Shown here piece by piece: positions 26,641 through 51,262 of a stretch of DNA of 64,000 nt. Origin of the DNA: Chloroflexi bacterium 54-19 (GTDB taxonomy: Bacteria; Chloroflexota; Chloroflexia; Chloroheliales; Chloroheliaceae); NCBI GenBank assembly GCA_001898225.1, contig MKTJ01000059.1, forward strand, positions 1 to 64,000, in the 5' to 3' direction. Under the pieces are notes generated by a model, which ran no database searches, was not told where the DNA came from, and was given only the letters and a program-made list of their open reading frames with translations. The translations under genes were made by a program, and so were the position numbers. Position 1 is the first letter of the stretch. Each line of letters begins with the position of its first letter.

Positions 26641-29421
26641 ATGTCTACACATACGCCTACGCCTGTTCTAGCCACCAAACTTTATATCCCACTGCCTCCA
26701 CCAAAATCGGTGTTTCGGCCCCGCCTGATTGAGCGGCTTAATGCTGGTTTGAACCACAATCACAAACTAACCCTGGTTTCTGCCCCAGCCGGTTTTGGCA
26801 AGACAACTCTAGTAACGGCATGGCTCACCTCCCATGATCGGCCAGTTACCTGGTTATCGCTAGATGAAGGAGACAGCGAACCCGGTCGCTTTCTAACCTA
26901 CCTGGTAGCGGCTTTACAAAAGATTAAGCCCAATTTGGGAGCCGGGTTGATAGAGGTGCTTCAATCTCCGCAACCTCCTTCAAATGAAATTATTTTATCC
27001 GCCCTGCTTAACGAAACAACCGCCATTCCGGGTAACTTCTTCCTGGTGCTTGACGACTACCACTTAATTGAATCCAGGCCGGTTGATAAGGTACTCACCT
27101 TCCTGCTTGAACATCTCCCACCCCAGATGCACCTTGTTATTACCACTCGCGAGGATCCCCAGGTTCCACTGCCACGCTTACGGGCGCGGGGCCAGTTGAC
27201 CGAACTGCGGGCTAACGACTTGCGCTTCACTGCCGCCGAAGCAGCCGAGTTTCTCAAGGAGGTTATGAGCCTTTCTCTCACCCAGGAGGACCTGGCAACC
27301 CTGGAAGACCGTACCGAGGGCTGGATTGCCGGCCTCCAACTTGCCGCCCTTTCGATGCAAGGCCACCACGATATGGCCGGGTTCGTCCGAAGCTTTGCCG
27401 GAGATCACCGTTACATTCTGGACTATCTGGTCGAGGAAGTTCTGAGACGCCAGAGTGAAGATGGGCGCAACTTCTTACTCCAGACTTCCATCCTGAACCG
27501 TTTAAATGCCTCACTTTGCGAGGCCGTTACGGGCCAGGCGCAGGGCCAGGTTCGGTTGGAGGCGCTTGAGCGAGGCAATTTCTTTATCGTGCCACTCGAT
27601 GACAAACGCCAGTGGTACCGGTATCATCATCTTTTTGCTGATGTGCTGTATGCATATTTAAAAACGGAGCAACCCGAAAAGGTATCAACTTTGCACCGGC
27701 GGGCTAGCGAGTGGTACGAGCATAACGGTGCGGCAGCCGATGCAATCCGCCACGCCCTGGCAGCCAGGGATTTTGAGCGAACGGCGAGTCTAATCGAGTT
27801 GTGTGTCCCAGCAATGCGCCGGAGTAGACAGGAAACCGTAGTGTTGGGTTGGTTGAAGGCGCTACCTGACGATGTGATCCGCTGCCGACCGGTGCTCAGC
27901 CTTCAGTATGCCGACACCTTAATGCTTACCGGTAAGTTGGAGGGTGTGGATGCACGCCTGCGGGATGCCGAACAGGGGCTGGATTCGATGGCACAATTGA
28001 ATGTTGATGTGCATCTTCATGTTTCACCGGCTGTAACATCCCCAGAACAAGACCGAAAATTGGTGGTCGTCAATAAAGAGGAATACCGTCGTCTACCAGG
28101 TGCAATAGCAATAAACCGGGCTGGATTGGCCCTTGTGCAGGGCGATGTACCCACTACCATTAAATATGCCCAGCGGGCTCTTGACCTATTACCCGAAGAA
28201 GACCATCTTGGCCGGGGAGCCGCGGCTTCCCTGCTTGGACTTTCCTATTGGACGAACGGTGACCTTGAGGCCGGGTACCATTCGTATGCCGAGGGAAGGG
28301 CCAGACTGCAACTGGCCGGGCACCTTGCTGACACCATGGGATGCACAATTGCTCTAGCGGATATTCGGATTACTCAGGGGCGTCTCCACGATGCAATGAC
28401 CACTTATGAACTGGCCTTACAGCTTGCGACCCGACAGGGCATGGATGTGCTGCGAGGAACGGCCGATATGTATGTGGGAATGAGCGAGCTCTATTTTGAG
28501 CATAATGACCTTATTGGAGCCACCCAGTACCTACACCGAAGTCGGGAGCTGAGTGAAATTGCTAGCTTACCCCAGTACCCTTATCGCTGGCGAGTTGCGT
28601 TTGCTCGAATAAAGCTGGCCGAGGGTGATGGTGCTGGCGCTCTCGAATTGCTTCACGAGGCAGAACAAGTATATACGGGTGACTTCTTCCCAAATGTCCG
28701 CCCTATCGCGGCCATGAAGGCAAGGTTGTGGGTGAGACAGGGCAGGTTAGGTCTAGCTCTGGACTGGGTCCGTGAGAGAGGGCTCTCGGTAGAAGATGAT
28801 CTCAGTTACCTGCGTGAGTACGAGCATATTTCCTTTGCCAGGGTGCTTTTGGCCCAGGCCCAAAATAACAGATGGCAAAACCGTAACCGGGCTGATTTCT
28901 ATACCAATGAGGTCTTTCGACTGTTGAAAGGGTTGTTACAGGCCGCCCAGGAGGGCGGAAGGAAGGGAAGCCTTATTGAAATCCTGGTGTTGCTCTCGCT
29001 TGCTCACCAGTCGCAAGGTGACCTGCCGTCTGCTCTTGCTGCATTGCAACAGGCGCTGACGCTGGCTGAACCGGAGGGTTATGTGCGCATTTTTGTGGAT
29101 GAAGAACCGGCCATGGCTCATCTTCTTCAGGAGGCGCTGAAACACCAAATCGTTCCAAACTATACCCGGCAACTGCTGGCAGCTTCTGGCAAGGTTGAAG
29201 AAATAAAACCTTTCAAACAACCTTTGGTTGAGCCGCTAACCGAACGAGAGCTCGAACTGCTGCGCCTGCTCAGGACCAACCTGACCGGTCCGGAAATCGC
29301 CCGCACTCTCCTGGTATCTTTGAGCACGATCCGCACCCACACCCAGAATGTTTATACCAAGCTTGAGGTGAACGACCGTCGGGCCGCAGTCAACCGGGGT
29401 GAAGAACTCGGTTTATTGTAG
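26641..29421 (+). CDS. MalT-like LuxR-family transcriptional regulator (NTPase-TPR-HTH)
   Basis: 'KLTLVSAPAGFGKTTLVTAWL', 'FLVLDDYHLIE', C-terminal HTH 'LTERELELLRLLRTNLTGPEIARTLLVSLSTIRTHTQNVYTKLEVNDRRAAVNR'. Confidence 0.93.
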   Translation: MSTHTPTPVLATKLYIPLPPPKSVFRPRLIERLNAGLNHNHKLTLVSAPAGFGKTTLVTAWLTSHDRPVTWLSLDEGDSEPGRFLTYLVAALQKIKPNLGAGLIEVLQSPQPPSNEIILSALLNETTAIPGNFFLVLDDYHLIESRPVDKVLTFLLEHLPPQMHLVITTREDPQVPLPRLRARGQLTELRANDLRFTAAEAAEFLKEVMSLSLTQEDLATLEDRTEGWIAGLQLAALSMQGHHDMAGFVRSFAGDHRYILDYLVEEVLRRQSEDGRNFLLQTSILNRLNASLCEAVTGQAQGQVRLEALERGNFFIVPLDDKRQWYRYHHLFADVLYAYLKTEQPEKVSTLHRRASEWYEHNGAAADAIRHALAARDFERTASLIELCVPAMRRSRQETVVLGWLKALPDDVIRCRPVLSLQYADTLMLTGKLEGVDARLRDAEQGLDSMAQLNVDVHLHVSPAVTSPEQDRKLVVVNKEEYRRLPGAIAINRAGLALVQGDVPTTIKYAQRALDLLPEEDHLGRGAAASLLGLSYWTNGDLEAGYHSYAEGRARLQLAGHLADTMGCTIALADIRITQGRLHDAMTTYELALQLATRQGMDVLRGTADMYVGMSELYFEHNDLIGATQYLHRSRELSEIASLPQYPYRWRVAFARIKLAEGDGAGALELLHEAEQVYTGDFFPNVRPIAAMKARLWVRQGRLGLALDWVRERGLSVEDDLSYLREYEHISFARVLLAQAQNNRWQNRNRADFYTNEVFRLLKGLLQAAQEGGRKGSLIEILVLLSLAHQSQGDLPSALAALQQALTLAEPEGYVRIFVDEEPAMAHLLQEALKHQIVPNYTRQLLAASGKVEEIKPFKQPLVEPLTERELELLRLLRTNLTGPEIARTLLVSLSTIRTHTQNVYTKLEVNDRRAAVNRGEELGLL

Positions 29422-33949: not shown

Positions 33950-34780
33950 ATGTTTGGAATGGTAAGAGCCGAATGGATGAAAGTTTACCGGCAGGGCACC
34001 ACCAGGATTTTGATGGGGCTACTGGCAGGCATCAGTCTTTTATTTGTGATAGGCCTGGCTGTTTCCGTCACTGGTACCGACGGCGGTAGTGAAGCCCTCC
34101 TGGTCCGACAAGAGGCTTTTAACAGGCTTAGTTTTCCAGGGGGTATCTTTACCGGTATTGCCCTGGTCAAAATCGTGGGGCTGTTTATCGTCGCTATCAT
34201 CTTTAGCAGCGTAATAGGCAGCGAGTATGGCCTTGACACCTGGAAGAATCTACTGGTGCGAAACAAAGCCAGGGGAGGCTTTATGGTCGCCAAGCTATTG
34301 GTTACGGGTGCAACTTTGCTAATTATCTTCAGTTTAGCTGTGGCATTAACGCAGTTGTTAGCCCTGGGCGGCTATGCCTTCGTCGCGGATACCGCTATTC
34401 ATAACGGGCTTACAAACCTGCCTACTTCCGCCGACCAGTTCTTTCACACCCTTCTGGTAGAAGCGGTTCCGTTGGTACTTAACTTTTCGGTCATTGCGGC
34501 TATTGCCGCAATGCTTACCGTTATCAGCCGTAACACCGTAGCCGGAATTATGCTGACAATTGTGTGGAACACCCTGGATGTAACCGTTTCTTTGCTGGTA
34601 CCTTCGGTGGGTAACGCTACCCTCGGTAAAAATCTTGCTTCTATCGGCAGCCACTTGGATAGGGCAGGTTCGGGTGAAATGCCGCTGTGGCAAAATTTGG
34701 CAGTGTTAGGGGTCTACTTTTTCATTCCAATGATTGTAGCAATCATTACTTTCCGCCGTCGCGATATGGCTGGTAACTAG
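33950..34780 (+). CDS. ABC-2 type transporter permease
   Basis: 'MFGMVRAEWMKVYRQGTTRILMGLLAG', 'GSEYGLDTWKNLLVRNKARGGFMVAKL'. Confidence 0.83.
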   Translation: MFGMVRAEWMKVYRQGTTRILMGLLAGISLLFVIGLAVSVTGTDGGSEALLVRQEAFNRLSFPGGIFTGIALVKIVGLFIVAIIFSSVIGSEYGLDTWKNLLVRNKARGGFMVAKLLVTGATLLIIFSLAVALTQLLALGGYAFVADTAIHNGLTNLPTSADQFFHTLLVEAVPLVLNFSVIAAIAAMLTVISRNTVAGIMLTIVWNTLDVTVSLLVPSVGNATLGKNLASIGSHLDRAGSGEMPLWQNLAVLGVYFFIPMIVAIITFRRRDMAGN

Positions 34781-34930: not shown

Positions 34931-35950
34931 ATGACGGGTACAACTATAACCAGGCAGGAAATGCAAATGCCTCAAACCTCTCAGCAATATAAAGAGGCGC
35001 TGGCTATCGAAGTGCAAGGGCTAACCAAACGCTATGGCCCCAACACGGTTGTTAATAATCTGCACCTGGCTATTCCCCAGGGTTCTATCTTCGGCTTCCT
35101 CGGCCAGAACGGAGCTGGTAAAACTACTACCATTCGCATGCTGCTGGGCCTGATCAATGCCACCAGTGGTCGGGCCAGCATCCTCGGCCACGATACCGTA
35201 ACCGGGCGACACCATATCCTGCCAAAGGTAGGGGCAATTGTCGAAACTCCCACCTTTTACCCCTACCTTAGCGGGCGTGAAAATCTTAAACAGTTGGCCC
35301 TAGTCGCAGGGGCTCCTTTTTCACGCATAGATGAAGTGTTGGAACAAGTCGAGCTCAGCGAGCGGGCCAAAGACAAAGTTAAGACCTATTCGCTGGGAAT
35401 GAAACAACGTTTAGGCATCGCGGCCGCTCTCTTAAACAATCCCCGGGTTATCTTTCTGGATGAACCGACCAACGGCCTTGACCCGCAGGGAACCGTGGAT
35501 ATGCGCAACCTGATATTGCGGCTGGGACAGAGCGGCCACACCATCTTTGTTTCCAGTCACCTGCTGCACGAAGTAGAGCAGATGTGCAGCCACGTGGCTA
35601 TCATTAACCGGGGCAAACTGGTGGTACAAGGCAGCATCGAGGAATTACTTGAAGGGACGACCAAAACCCTGCTGGAAGTAACCCCGATACCGACTGCTGT
35701 ACAAATCTTGACTCAAATTTTGGGGCAAGAAGCCAGAGTGAGAGAGATGGATGCGCGCACAATAGAGCTTGAGATTGACCCCGAGACGGTGCCGGATGCT
35801 GTCCAGGCTCTGGTTGGAGCAGGAGTACGCATCTACTCGGTCGCGCAACAGAAAGCCTCTTTGGAGAATTACTTTTTGGCCGTAACCGGTGTCGGTAAAG
35901 ACCTAGAAGATAATCAACAAACTGTCGCTGCCCCAAACCTGGCGGCGTGA
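34931..35950 (+). CDS. ABC transporter ATP-binding protein
   Basis: 'GFLGQNGAGKTTTIRMLLGL' Walker A, 'YSLGMKQRLGIAAALLNNPRVIFLDEPTNGLDP'. Confidence 0.95.
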   Translation: MTGTTITRQEMQMPQTSQQYKEALAIEVQGLTKRYGPNTVVNNLHLAIPQGSIFGFLGQNGAGKTTTIRMLLGLINATSGRASILGHDTVTGRHHILPKVGAIVETPTFYPYLSGRENLKQLALVAGAPFSRIDEVLEQVELSERAKDKVKTYSLGMKQRLGIAAALLNNPRVIFLDEPTNGLDPQGTVDMRNLILRLGQSGHTIFVSSHLLHEVEQMCSHVAIINRGKLVVQGSIEELLEGTTKTLLEVTPIPTAVQILTQILGQEARVREMDARTIELEIDPETVPDAVQALVGAGVRIYSVAQQKASLENYFLAVTGVGKDLEDNQQTVAAPNLAA

Positions 35951-36063
35951 TGTACGCTAGGTCACCTCTGTCCAAAGGTAATTAACCCGTTTAACATCCA
36001 ACTATCCAAGGCACAATTGTTTATTTAATTTATTCATCTTTAGGGTCTTGCGGATACACAACC

Positions 36064-36109
36064 AATGTGATAAACTATGTGCGTGCGCACGCACATAGTT
36101 TATCACATT
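36064..36109. promoter_or_regulatory. Perfect 46-bp palindrome upstream of a marR gene
   Basis: AATGTGATAAACTATGTGCGTGC|GCACGCACATAGTTTATCACATT, 23-bp arms, no spacer, 20 bp before the start codon at 36130. Confidence 0.85.
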
Positions 36110-36129
36110 AAGTGACCTGAGGGGGTTAA

Positions 36130-36558
36130 ATGAACAATTTATTAACTCTTTTTGATTTAATTGGCGAACTCGCCCGGCGACGCTTTCAAATTGCCGAAAA
36201 ACACTATTCCGCCCTAAGGCTAAATCATACCGAAGCACGATTACTAACTCTTCTTCACCGGGAAGATGGTAAGGCCAGTCAGGATACCCTTTCTAATATG
36301 CTCAATGTAGACAGAAGCAATGCTGGTCGCGCTCTCAAAAACCTCGAAGCTGAAGGCTATATTGAACGCTACCAGAGTGCCGCCGATAAAAGAACCAATC
36401 TCGTTAAGATTACGGACAAGGGGCGTGAAACTGTCGCCGAAATAGAAAAGTTAAAAGAAAAAATGATTCAGGAATTTTTGGGTGACCTCTCTGAAGATGA
36501 GGCTGGCCAGATTATTAATCTCCTGAGAAAGGTTTATTCAAATGAAGCAGATTTATAA
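36130..36558 (+). CDS. MarR-family transcriptional regulator
   Basis: 'LNHTEARLLTLLHREDGKASQDTLSNMLNVDRSNAGRALKNLEAEGYIERYQSAADKRTNLVKITDKGRE' winged helix. Confidence 0.92.
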   Translation: MNNLLTLFDLIGELARRRFQIAEKHYSALRLNHTEARLLTLLHREDGKASQDTLSNMLNVDRSNAGRALKNLEAEGYIERYQSAADKRTNLVKITDKGRETVAEIEKLKEKMIQEFLGDLSEDEAGQIINLLRKVYSNEADL

Positions 36559-38044
36559 CAATTCTCCCAAAATCTATGTGGATGGACAAATAGAAGCAAA
36601 AGTCGAAAGCCCGGCAATGCTGCCCCAGGTACGCTGGGCCCTCGTCAGCCTTTCGCTTGCCACATTGTTACCTGCCCTTGGTACAAGCATTGCCAGCGTT
36701 TCCCTGCCAACCCTGGCCCAGACTTTCAATGCTTCGTTTCCGCAAGTTCAGTGGATTGTCCTGGCCTATCTCCTGGCAACGACTGCCTTGGTCGTCAGCG
36801 CGGGGCGGCTTGGCGATATTTTCGGCAGGCGGCGGTTACTAATGAGCGGCCTGGTTGTGTTCACAGCGGCTTCGATCCTGTGCGGTGCTGCTCCTACTCT
36901 CTGGCTACTAATTGCTGCTCGCGCAGCCCAGGGATTTGGGGCGGCGGTCATGCTGTCGCTCAGTATGGCTTTAGTCGGGGAAACGGTCCCCAAACAAAAA
37001 ACTGGCAGCGCCATGGGTCTGCTCGGCACGATGTCCGCGATTGGTACCGCCCTCGGCCCATCGCTGGGAGGCATCTTGATCTCAGAACTGAGTTGGCGGT
37101 CAATTTTCCTGATTAACCTGCCGCTCGGCGGCCTGACCTTTTTCCTGGCCTACCGTTACCTGCCGGTTGAGCAAGGAAAGAAAGCAAGGGAAGGGGAACG
37201 GGTCCGCTTTGACACGCTTGGGACGCTGGTGCTTGCCCTGACTTTAGCAGGCTATGCTCTTGCCATGACGCTAGGGGGTGGGAAATTCGGCGTCCTCAAC
37301 ATAGCACACTTGGTAGCTGCTCTGTTCGGGGCCGGTTTGTTCGTTCTCACCGAGGCAAAGGCAACCTCACCGTTGATTAAATTGGCCGTGTTCCGCAATC
37401 CGCTTATGAGTGGGGGCTTCGCTACCAGTACCCTGGTTACGACGGTGCTAATGGCTACGCTGGTGGTTGGCCCATTCTATCTGGCATATGGACTAGGGCT
37501 TGGTTCGGCTCTTATTGGCCTGGTCATGTCGGTTGGACCGGTGGTTGTAGCCCTGACCGGCATACCGGCTGGTCGCCTGGTGGATCGCCTGGGCGCGCAA
37601 CGCCTGACAATTTTAGGGCTTGTCACAATCATGGTTGGCGCCTTTGGTTTGACCTTGATACCGTTCGGGTTCGGTATTCCCGGCTACCTTGCCCCCATTG
37701 CCTTTATTACCTTCGGTTATGCGTTGTTTCAGACCGCTAATAACACCGCAGTTATGAAGGATGTGCCTTCGGACCGGCGAGGGGCTATTTCCGGTCTGCT
37801 CAACTTGTCACGCAATCTTGGGCTTATTACCGGAACCTCGGTGATGGGTGCGTTATTTGCCCTGGCGTCTGGAACAAGCGAAATCACTGAGGCGAGCGCT
37901 GAGGCTGTTGCTGGAGGTATGCGGATTACGTTTGCTGTCGCGGCAGGTTTAATTCTGGTAGCCCTTATTATTGCGAATGTAAGCCGCAGCATTTCACATT
38001 TGCAGCGCAACCTTCTTGTGATCCGTGAGCAAAAAGAAGCATAA
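36542..38044 (+). CDS. MFS drug transporter, DHA2/EmrB-QacA type
   Basis: 'PTLAQTFNASFPQVQWIVLAYLLATTALVVSAGRLGDIFGRRRLL'; overlaps marR by 17 nt. Confidence 0.92.
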   Translation: MKQIYNNSPKIYVDGQIEAKVESPAMLPQVRWALVSLSLATLLPALGTSIASVSLPTLAQTFNASFPQVQWIVLAYLLATTALVVSAGRLGDIFGRRRLLMSGLVVFTAASILCGAAPTLWLLIAARAAQGFGAAVMLSLSMALVGETVPKQKTGSAMGLLGTMSAIGTALGPSLGGILISELSWRSIFLINLPLGGLTFFLAYRYLPVEQGKKAREGERVRFDTLGTLVLALTLAGYALAMTLGGGKFGVLNIAHLVAALFGAGLFVLTEAKATSPLIKLAVFRNPLMSGGFATSTLVTTVLMATLVVGPFYLAYGLGLGSALIGLVMSVGPVVVALTGIPAGRLVDRLGAQRLTILGLVTIMVGAFGLTLIPFGFGIPGYLAPIAFITFGYALFQTANNTAVMKDVPSDRRGAISGLLNLSRNLGLITGTSVMGALFALASGTSEITEASAEAVAGGMRITFAVAAGLILVALIIANVSRSISHLQRNLLVIREQKEA

Positions 38045-45044: not shown

Positions 45045-45881
45045 ATGGTAACTTTAAAGCAGCGCCCTACAACCACTCAAACCAATATTGCCCAAACCGA
45101 AAAGGAAGAAAAGCTAGCAGGTGCTCCCACCGAGCTCGTTACCTTCTTCGGCATGGCTTACCTGATAACCTGGATTATTGTTGGCTTGAAAATCTTTACT
45201 GACATCAAAATCCCGGGCTTTTTCGCGCTGGCCGGACCGACTATCGCGGCCCTGGTCGTTATTGGCTTCAGTAGCGGGTTAACTGGGTACAGGGAACTGG
45301 GAAAACGGTTAATACGCTTACGCTTTGGTCTGAAATGGTATGCTCTGGCTCTCCTTATCACACCGGCTATAAGTCTAACAGCTTATATTATGGGCAAAAC
45401 CTTCAACCTGGGCGATATTCCCGCCGAAAGCGATTTGGTGCTGGTTCTGCCGATGTTACTGGGCAACTTTGCCCTGTTCTTCTTTACCGAAGAGATCGGC
45501 TGGAGGGGATACGCGTTGCCAAAATTGCAAAAGATGTTTAATCCGCTTGTTTCGAGTCTGGTTTTGGGAATTCTCTGGGGACTGTGGCATCTGCCCTACT
45601 GGTTTGTGCCAGGTTCGTTTCAGGCGGGGCTGCCCTTCGCCGGGTTTATGCTGCTGACGGTATCCCAGGCTGTTTTGATGACCTGGCTCTACAACAACAG
45701 CCGGGACAGCGTCCTGCTGGCGGTCCTTTTTCACGCCGCCGCCGATACCGCCTTTGCTTTCTCAGGGGTTCTTTCGGGGCCACAAACCCTTTTCTGGCTG
45801 GTGGTTGGATTGCAGTGGCTGGTAACCTTGGGAGTGATTGCTTATACAAAGGGCGGCTTACATATCAGAGCAGCCAGGTAA
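45045..45881 (+). CDS. CPBP-family intramembrane metalloprotease
   Basis: 'FFTEEIGWRGYALPKLQKMF' and 'GILWGLWHLPYW' (EExxxR and H motifs). Confidence 0.88.
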   Translation: MVTLKQRPTTTQTNIAQTEKEEKLAGAPTELVTFFGMAYLITWIIVGLKIFTDIKIPGFFALAGPTIAALVVIGFSSGLTGYRELGKRLIRLRFGLKWYALALLITPAISLTAYIMGKTFNLGDIPAESDLVLVLPMLLGNFALFFFTEEIGWRGYALPKLQKMFNPLVSSLVLGILWGLWHLPYWFVPGSFQAGLPFAGFMLLTVSQAVLMTWLYNNSRDSVLLAVLFHAAADTAFAFSGVLSGPQTLFWLVVGLQWLVTLGVIAYTKGGLHIRAAR

Positions 45882-45904: not shown

Positions 45905-45950
45905 AAATCAAAATGAACGGTTTGGAAAACGAAACCGTTCATTTTGATTT
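45905..45950 (+). terminator. Perfect 19-bp-arm hairpin after the CPBP gene
   Basis: AAATCAAAATGAACGGTTT (45905-45923), loop ggaaaacg, AAACCGTTCATTTTGATTT (45932-45950). Confidence 0.7.
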
Positions 45951-50725: not shown

Positions 50726-50755
50726 TTGACTTAAAGCGCTTTAAGTTATTAGACT
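50726..50755 (+). promoter_or_regulatory. MerR-type operator/promoter copy 2 upstream of merR-family gene
   Basis: TTGACTTAAAGCGCTTTAAGTTATTAGACT; perfect 16-bp palindrome CTTAAAGCGCTTTAAG at 50730-50745. Confidence 0.75.
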
Positions 50756-50776: not shown

Positions 50777-51262
50777 ATGAATACTACTGTAAATGAGATT
50801 ATGGAAAAAACACTAATCTACACAATCAAAGAAGCCTCCGAATTAAGCGGTCTGCCGGAAAGCACCCTCCGCTACTACGAGACAATCGGCCTCCTGGGGC
50901 CGATCAACCGCGGTTCGACCAGTAAGCAGCGCGAGTATACCGAGCGCAATATTGATGAGGCGATTTCAATCGCGTGCCTGAACGCCACCGGTATGTCGAT
51001 AGAGGACATGCGCGCCTATCTTGGTAACCGGACTCAGGGTGTGGTGGGAGCCAGGGACCAGGTGGCGCTGCTGGAAAACCATACAGGGCGGTTGGCTGAC
51101 GAGGCTTATTACTTGCAGCTTCGCCAGCGCTATGTTGACACTAAGATTAGCTACTGGAAAGCGGTGGCCGAGGAAGATAGCGAACAGGCCCAGGCCATGA
51201 GTAAGAACGCGAAGCTGATAGCCAAAGAGCTTAAATTCACCAGGGAAAAGCTTGGTCAGTAA
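50777..51262 (+). CDS. MerR-family transcriptional regulator
   Basis: 'YTIKEASELSGLPESTLRYYETIGLLGPINRGSTSKQREYTERNIDEAISIACLNATGMSIEDMRAYL'. Confidence 0.93.
   Translation: MNTTVNEIMEKTLIYTIKEASELSGLPESTLRYYETIGLLGPINRGSTSKQREYTERNIDEAISIACLNATGMSIEDMRAYLGNRTQGVVGARDQVALLENHTGRLADEAYYLQLRQRYVDTKISYWKAVAEEDSEQAQAMSKNAKLIAKELKFTREKLGQ

Follow-up and report, generated by a model that had tools for sequence, protein, structure and literature searches.

A 46-bp perfect palindrome ahead of a marR-MFS efflux operon in Chloroflexi bacterium 54-19 as a candidate autoregulatory MarR operator

The 64,000-nucleotide stretch of Chloroflexi bacterium 54-19 DNA analysed here (the window) carries, just ahead of a marR-type repressor gene and an MFS efflux transporter gene, a palindrome that raises two questions: what it does and why it is so long. 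The sequence, AATGTGATAAACTATGTGCGTGCGCACGCACATAGTTTATCACATT, equals its own reverse complement at 46 of 46 bases, and the marR ATG at 36130 follows after a gap of 20 bases. Given the size and base composition of the window, the expected count of perfect palindromes with 23-bp arms is 9e-10; over the 9.25-Mb genome (93 contigs) it is 1.3e-7. Arms of 10 bp are found both in the runner-up within the window and in the longest perfect palindrome from other stretches of the same genome, for which the palindrome statistics rest on a sample of about 400 kb. These findings confirm that the palindrome is real and far beyond chance, and they bear out a sequence-only reading that had described a perfect palindrome of unusual length and exactness 20 bp before a marR-MFS operon (Table 1).

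Table 1. Features of the palindrome, the marR-MFS operon, and its surroundings in the window
Feature	Position	Strand	Remarks
46-bp perfect palindrome	36064..36109	.	dyad between 36086 and 36087
Conserved core operator (candidate), AACTATGTGCGTGC/GCACGCACATAGTT	36073..36100	.	23/28 bases same in orthologous operon
22-bp kernel, TATGTGCGTGCGCACGCACATA	36076-36097		inside 28-bp core; single occurrence in own genome
Left outer arm, AATGTGATA	36064..36072	.	not conserved; appears to run into candidate extended -10
Right outer arm, TATCACATT	36101..36109	.	not conserved
Candidate promoter, TTGCGG-17-TAAACT with extended TG	36048..36076	+	weak: matched by 28% of shuffled sequences
Likely Shine-Dalgarno (GAGGGGG context)	36121..36125	+	predicted from sequence
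marR-type repressor gene	36130..36558	+	142 aa
MFS efflux transporter gene, DHA2/EmrB type	36542..38044	+	500 aa; 17-nt overlap with marR end
ABC transporter pair	33950-34780, 34931-35950		other side of palindrome from marR; ABC ATPase stop 35950

Elsewhere in the window, we observed a 20-bp perfect palindrome (GGCAAAAGGCGCCTTTTGCC) at 541-560 and an 18-bp perfect palindrome (ACTTAAAGCGCTTTAAGT) at 50729-50746, the latter 30 bp before a MerR-family regulator gene (50777-51262) of which it is possibly the operator. A 19-bp perfect stem with an 8-nt loop, followed by a T-rich tract, spans 45905-45950 just past a CAAX-protease-like gene (45045-45881) and looks like an intrinsic terminator.

The product of the downstream regulator gene scored 49.8 bits against PF01047 (cut-off, 24.6), which places a MarR winged-helix domain in it, and its membership in the family was also backed by structural relatives found by sequence. 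Its scores against the NCBIfam equivalogs MprA, SlyA, MarR, and BilQ were all far under cut-off, the best being BilQ at 59 versus 125 bits. The transporter matched MFS_1 (PF07690) at 216 bits and reached 191 bits against TIGR00711, below the cut-off of 230; it is EmrB-like, not a certified DHA2/EmrB member. Since a genome of the same genus (G001) keeps the ABC transporter pair (67-79% identical) in a flank without marR-MFS, the operon looks like an accessory unit.

Palindromes in marR promoters are bound by MarR dimers, and autoregulation is common among such regulators (PMC5487221). The palindrome of the window likewise has dyad symmetry and sits in the promoter or leader of the marR gene right behind it, and we consider it very probable, judging from sequence comparisons, that its inner 22 to 28 bp serve as the autoregulatory operator for homodimers of the MarR protein that this gene encodes. 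The MarR dimer would cover the -10 and start region of the marR-MFS promoter and block RNA polymerase. It would be released by a ligand, probably some toxic substrate of the pump, and both regulator and pump would thereby be induced. Such ligand-released autoregulation is typical of the family (PMC5487221). The outer 9 bp on each side would add little to specificity. Beyond the palindrome itself, the computational evidence for an inner MarR operator comprises a conserved position and core, a conserved helix, symmetric changes, and close matches that fall near-exclusively at repressor promoters.

The sole orthologous marR-MFS operon among 158 class genomes is in G338 (MarR, 49-51% identical; MFS, 59% identical), in a neighbourhood otherwise unlike that of the window. 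At the same place, 33 bp before the marR ATG, G338 has a 32-bp near-perfect palindrome, CTAAATATATGCGTGC/GCACGCATGTATTTAG. The two upstream regions are hardly alignable outside the palindrome, and neither 28-bp core has a better match in the other sequence than its counterpart. Counted from the dyad, arm positions 1-7 are identical on both arms. Five positions differ within the 16-bp arm of G338, and four of these (8, 12, 15, and 16) changed on both sides with pairing kept; position 9 changed on one side only, and beyond position 16 the G338 palindrome is asymmetric. Both MarR proteins have the same predicted recognition-helix segment, DRSNAGRALK. The site is conserved with its orthologous regulator on the basis of this single ortholog; searches for others found none in plasmids, none in 47 genomes of another class (a search without a positive control), and, in genome contigs, only a distant Veillonella MarR.

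A comparison of orthologous marR-MFS loci, which the sequence-only reading had proposed as a check, found a related palindrome at the only ortholog among the 158 class genomes. The suggested link to MarR gains support from this related palindrome at the same place and from the recurrence of the core almost only at repressor promoters. The idea that outer and inner blocks could be separate is also supported, as conservation covers the inner ~28 bp and leaves out ~9 bp at either end. Exact conservation of both arms held in part: the inner ~32 bp are symmetric in the ortholog, but conservation does not extend out to 46 bp.

With up to three mismatches allowed, the kernel still occurred once in the source genome. 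Scanning the 158 class genomes with up to two mismatches gave three sites, in the window itself (G000), in G338, and in G027, each directly upstream of marR. Three-mismatch sites in these genomes were, a second G027 copy apart, little commoner than matches to a reversed control, and no marR gene was found at the remaining ones inspected. Across 400 phylum genomes, the strict kernel matched five sites in four genomes, all at repressor-gene promoters (three marR, one tetR), versus two sites for the reversed control pattern; 15 of the 22 kernel columns were invariant over four sites. We saw no genome-wide regulon, with the kernel and the outer arm each single-copy in the source genome, and a repeat element or mobile palindrome family was rejected on the same lack of a second copy. 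A viral source was also rejected, there being no exact kernel match in viral contigs, and a partial core match at window position 28804 (19/28), inside a coding frame, was taken as chance. Upstream of five other MarR paralogs of the genome that were examined, we found at most ordinary inverted repeats with 10-bp arms, such as TTAGTCAAGG-A-CCTTGACTAA, and palindromes upstream of distant MarR homologs had no sequence in common with the 46-bp palindrome.

The G027 site, in a third family, lies before a gene not known beforehand whose product is a MarR protein by Pfam. Because this protein is only 21% identical to the MarR of the window, the similar operator may be convergent. G027 carries tandem candidate operators, TATGTGATTGCGCACTCACATA and TATGTGCGTGCGCACGCATTTG, with centres 30 bp apart (L116, G027:C17, 3778-3829), in the divergent region between a gene for a small predicted protein and the marR gene. 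The likeness consists of the same 22-bp kernel following a TTGCCA/TATACT promoter; in contrast to the window, the regulator is of another MarR subfamily and there are two shorter imperfect palindromes rather than one long perfect one. In G276, a palindrome of the same class (TATGTGTGTGAGCACTCACATA) overlaps the start of a gene assigned to the TetR type by sequence inspection (L128, G276:C160, about 1501-1522). The motif is therefore not MarR-specific, and the two regulator families may have come to use similar operators by convergence.

The length of the palindrome calls for a separate explanation, since the G338 ortholog lacks the outer 9 bp on each side. These arms could have arisen by template-switch extension, could form a second half-site pair, or could repeat a -10 element symmetrically; we favour template switching. 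Quasipalindrome template switching during replication would have made a core with imperfect flanks exact, leaving outer arms that are under no selection. This is an established route by which imperfect inverted repeats become perfect (PMC7202029), and it fits the unconserved outer arms, but we found no close relative carrying the operon in which the arms could be compared; we put its probability slightly short of even. Template switching concerns the outer arms only and is compatible with an inner MarR operator.

Alternatively, two MarR dimers, or MarR and a second regulator, could occupy the full 46 bp, with the outer TGTGATAA/TTATCACA blocks supplying the second half-site pair. In favour are the perfection of the outer arms, another copy of the half-site ATGTG 12 bp further out, the two operator copies before marR in G027, and the precedent of the MarR-type regulator AesR, which protects 44 bp containing two side-by-side palindromes, an arrangement ascribed to a dimer pair (PMC13413800). 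However, the outer blocks are absent from the G338 ortholog, their sequence is found nowhere else in the genome, and by eye no inverted partner stands at the proper spacing from the outer half-site, so that we regard such an extended or double operator as unlikely. A two-tier composite, in which a MarR-dimer core and outer half-sites recruiting a second dimer pair or another regulator would be occupied with strong cooperativity, with a -10 element (TGATAAACT) on both strands, seems to us a somewhat poorer prospect still.

Whether the palindrome acts as DNA or as RNA depends on where transcription starts. The G338 promoter, TTGCCA-17-TATACT, is near-consensus (reached by 1.9% of shuffles), overlaps the palindrome edge, and puts the predicted transcription start inside the palindrome. 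The G027 promoter, TTGCCA-18-TATACT with an extended TG, is also near-consensus and lies upstream of the operator copies. A near-consensus promoter just upstream of the palindrome in both genomes favours a DNA operator over an RNA hairpin; for the window we only infer the promoter step, because its own candidate promoter is weak. Furthermore, the core conserves base identity and not only pairing, indicating protein recognition.

A hairpin in the 5' leader controlling translation or stability of the marR-MFS message, which the sequence-only reading had also entertained, is disfavoured by these results and in our judgement highly improbable. A transcript of the full palindrome would have a folding energy of about -37 kcal/mol (z, -7.2), but with a start inside it, as the ortholog promoter implies, the leaders cut at the predicted starts gain little or nothing in folding over shuffles (z, -1.2 for the window and -0.8 for the ortholog). 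The hairpin would also stop about 11 nt short of the ribosome-binding site and leave it unmasked. A Rho-independent terminator of the upstream ABC operon deserves almost no credence and was in effect refuted: a stem-loop does lie between the ABC ATPase and marR, but the + strand has no T-tract after the stem, the only terminator call of the scan is on the - strand, on which no gene ends, and the palindrome goes with marR rather than with the ABC genes, which G001 keeps without marR-MFS, and recurs in another neighbourhood in G338. Nor was a CRP-like reading of TGTGA...TCACA retained, since the two blocks lie much too far apart.

MarR-family autoregulatory operators of efflux operons include those of MarR and MprA/EmrR, and SCO3205 provides a marR-adjacent operator. 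The locus of the window shares with this class a dyad site near the marR start, a regulator encoded with an efflux pump, and a dimeric winged-helix regulator, and differs from it in a perfect 46-bp symmetry with a GC-rich TGCGTGC/GCACGCA centre. To our knowledge, no characterised MarR operator has this sequence, and none turned up when open papers were searched for MarR together with the letters GTGCGTGCGCAC; as far as we searched, the operator sequence is undescribed. AesR of Corynebacterium glutamicum, with its 44-bp footprint, recognises the half-site ACTATG...CATAGT, which is also present in the window core (PMC13413800). The AesR half-sites are 3 bp apart in two side-by-side palindromes, whereas in the single palindrome of the window ACTATG and CATAGT are 14 bp apart, and the shared letters are likely a coincidence. 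The kind of switch is ordinary and known; the length and perfection of the palindrome are unusual.

For a so far uncharacterised efflux operon, these findings name a regulator, a candidate operator (TATGTGCGTGC/GCACGCACATA), and a target pump. With its single site and high symmetry, the operator could find use as a biosensor part or as a clean model of how MarR binds DNA. The locus further raises the question of why certain operators drift towards perfect symmetry over a length well in excess of the protein footprint.
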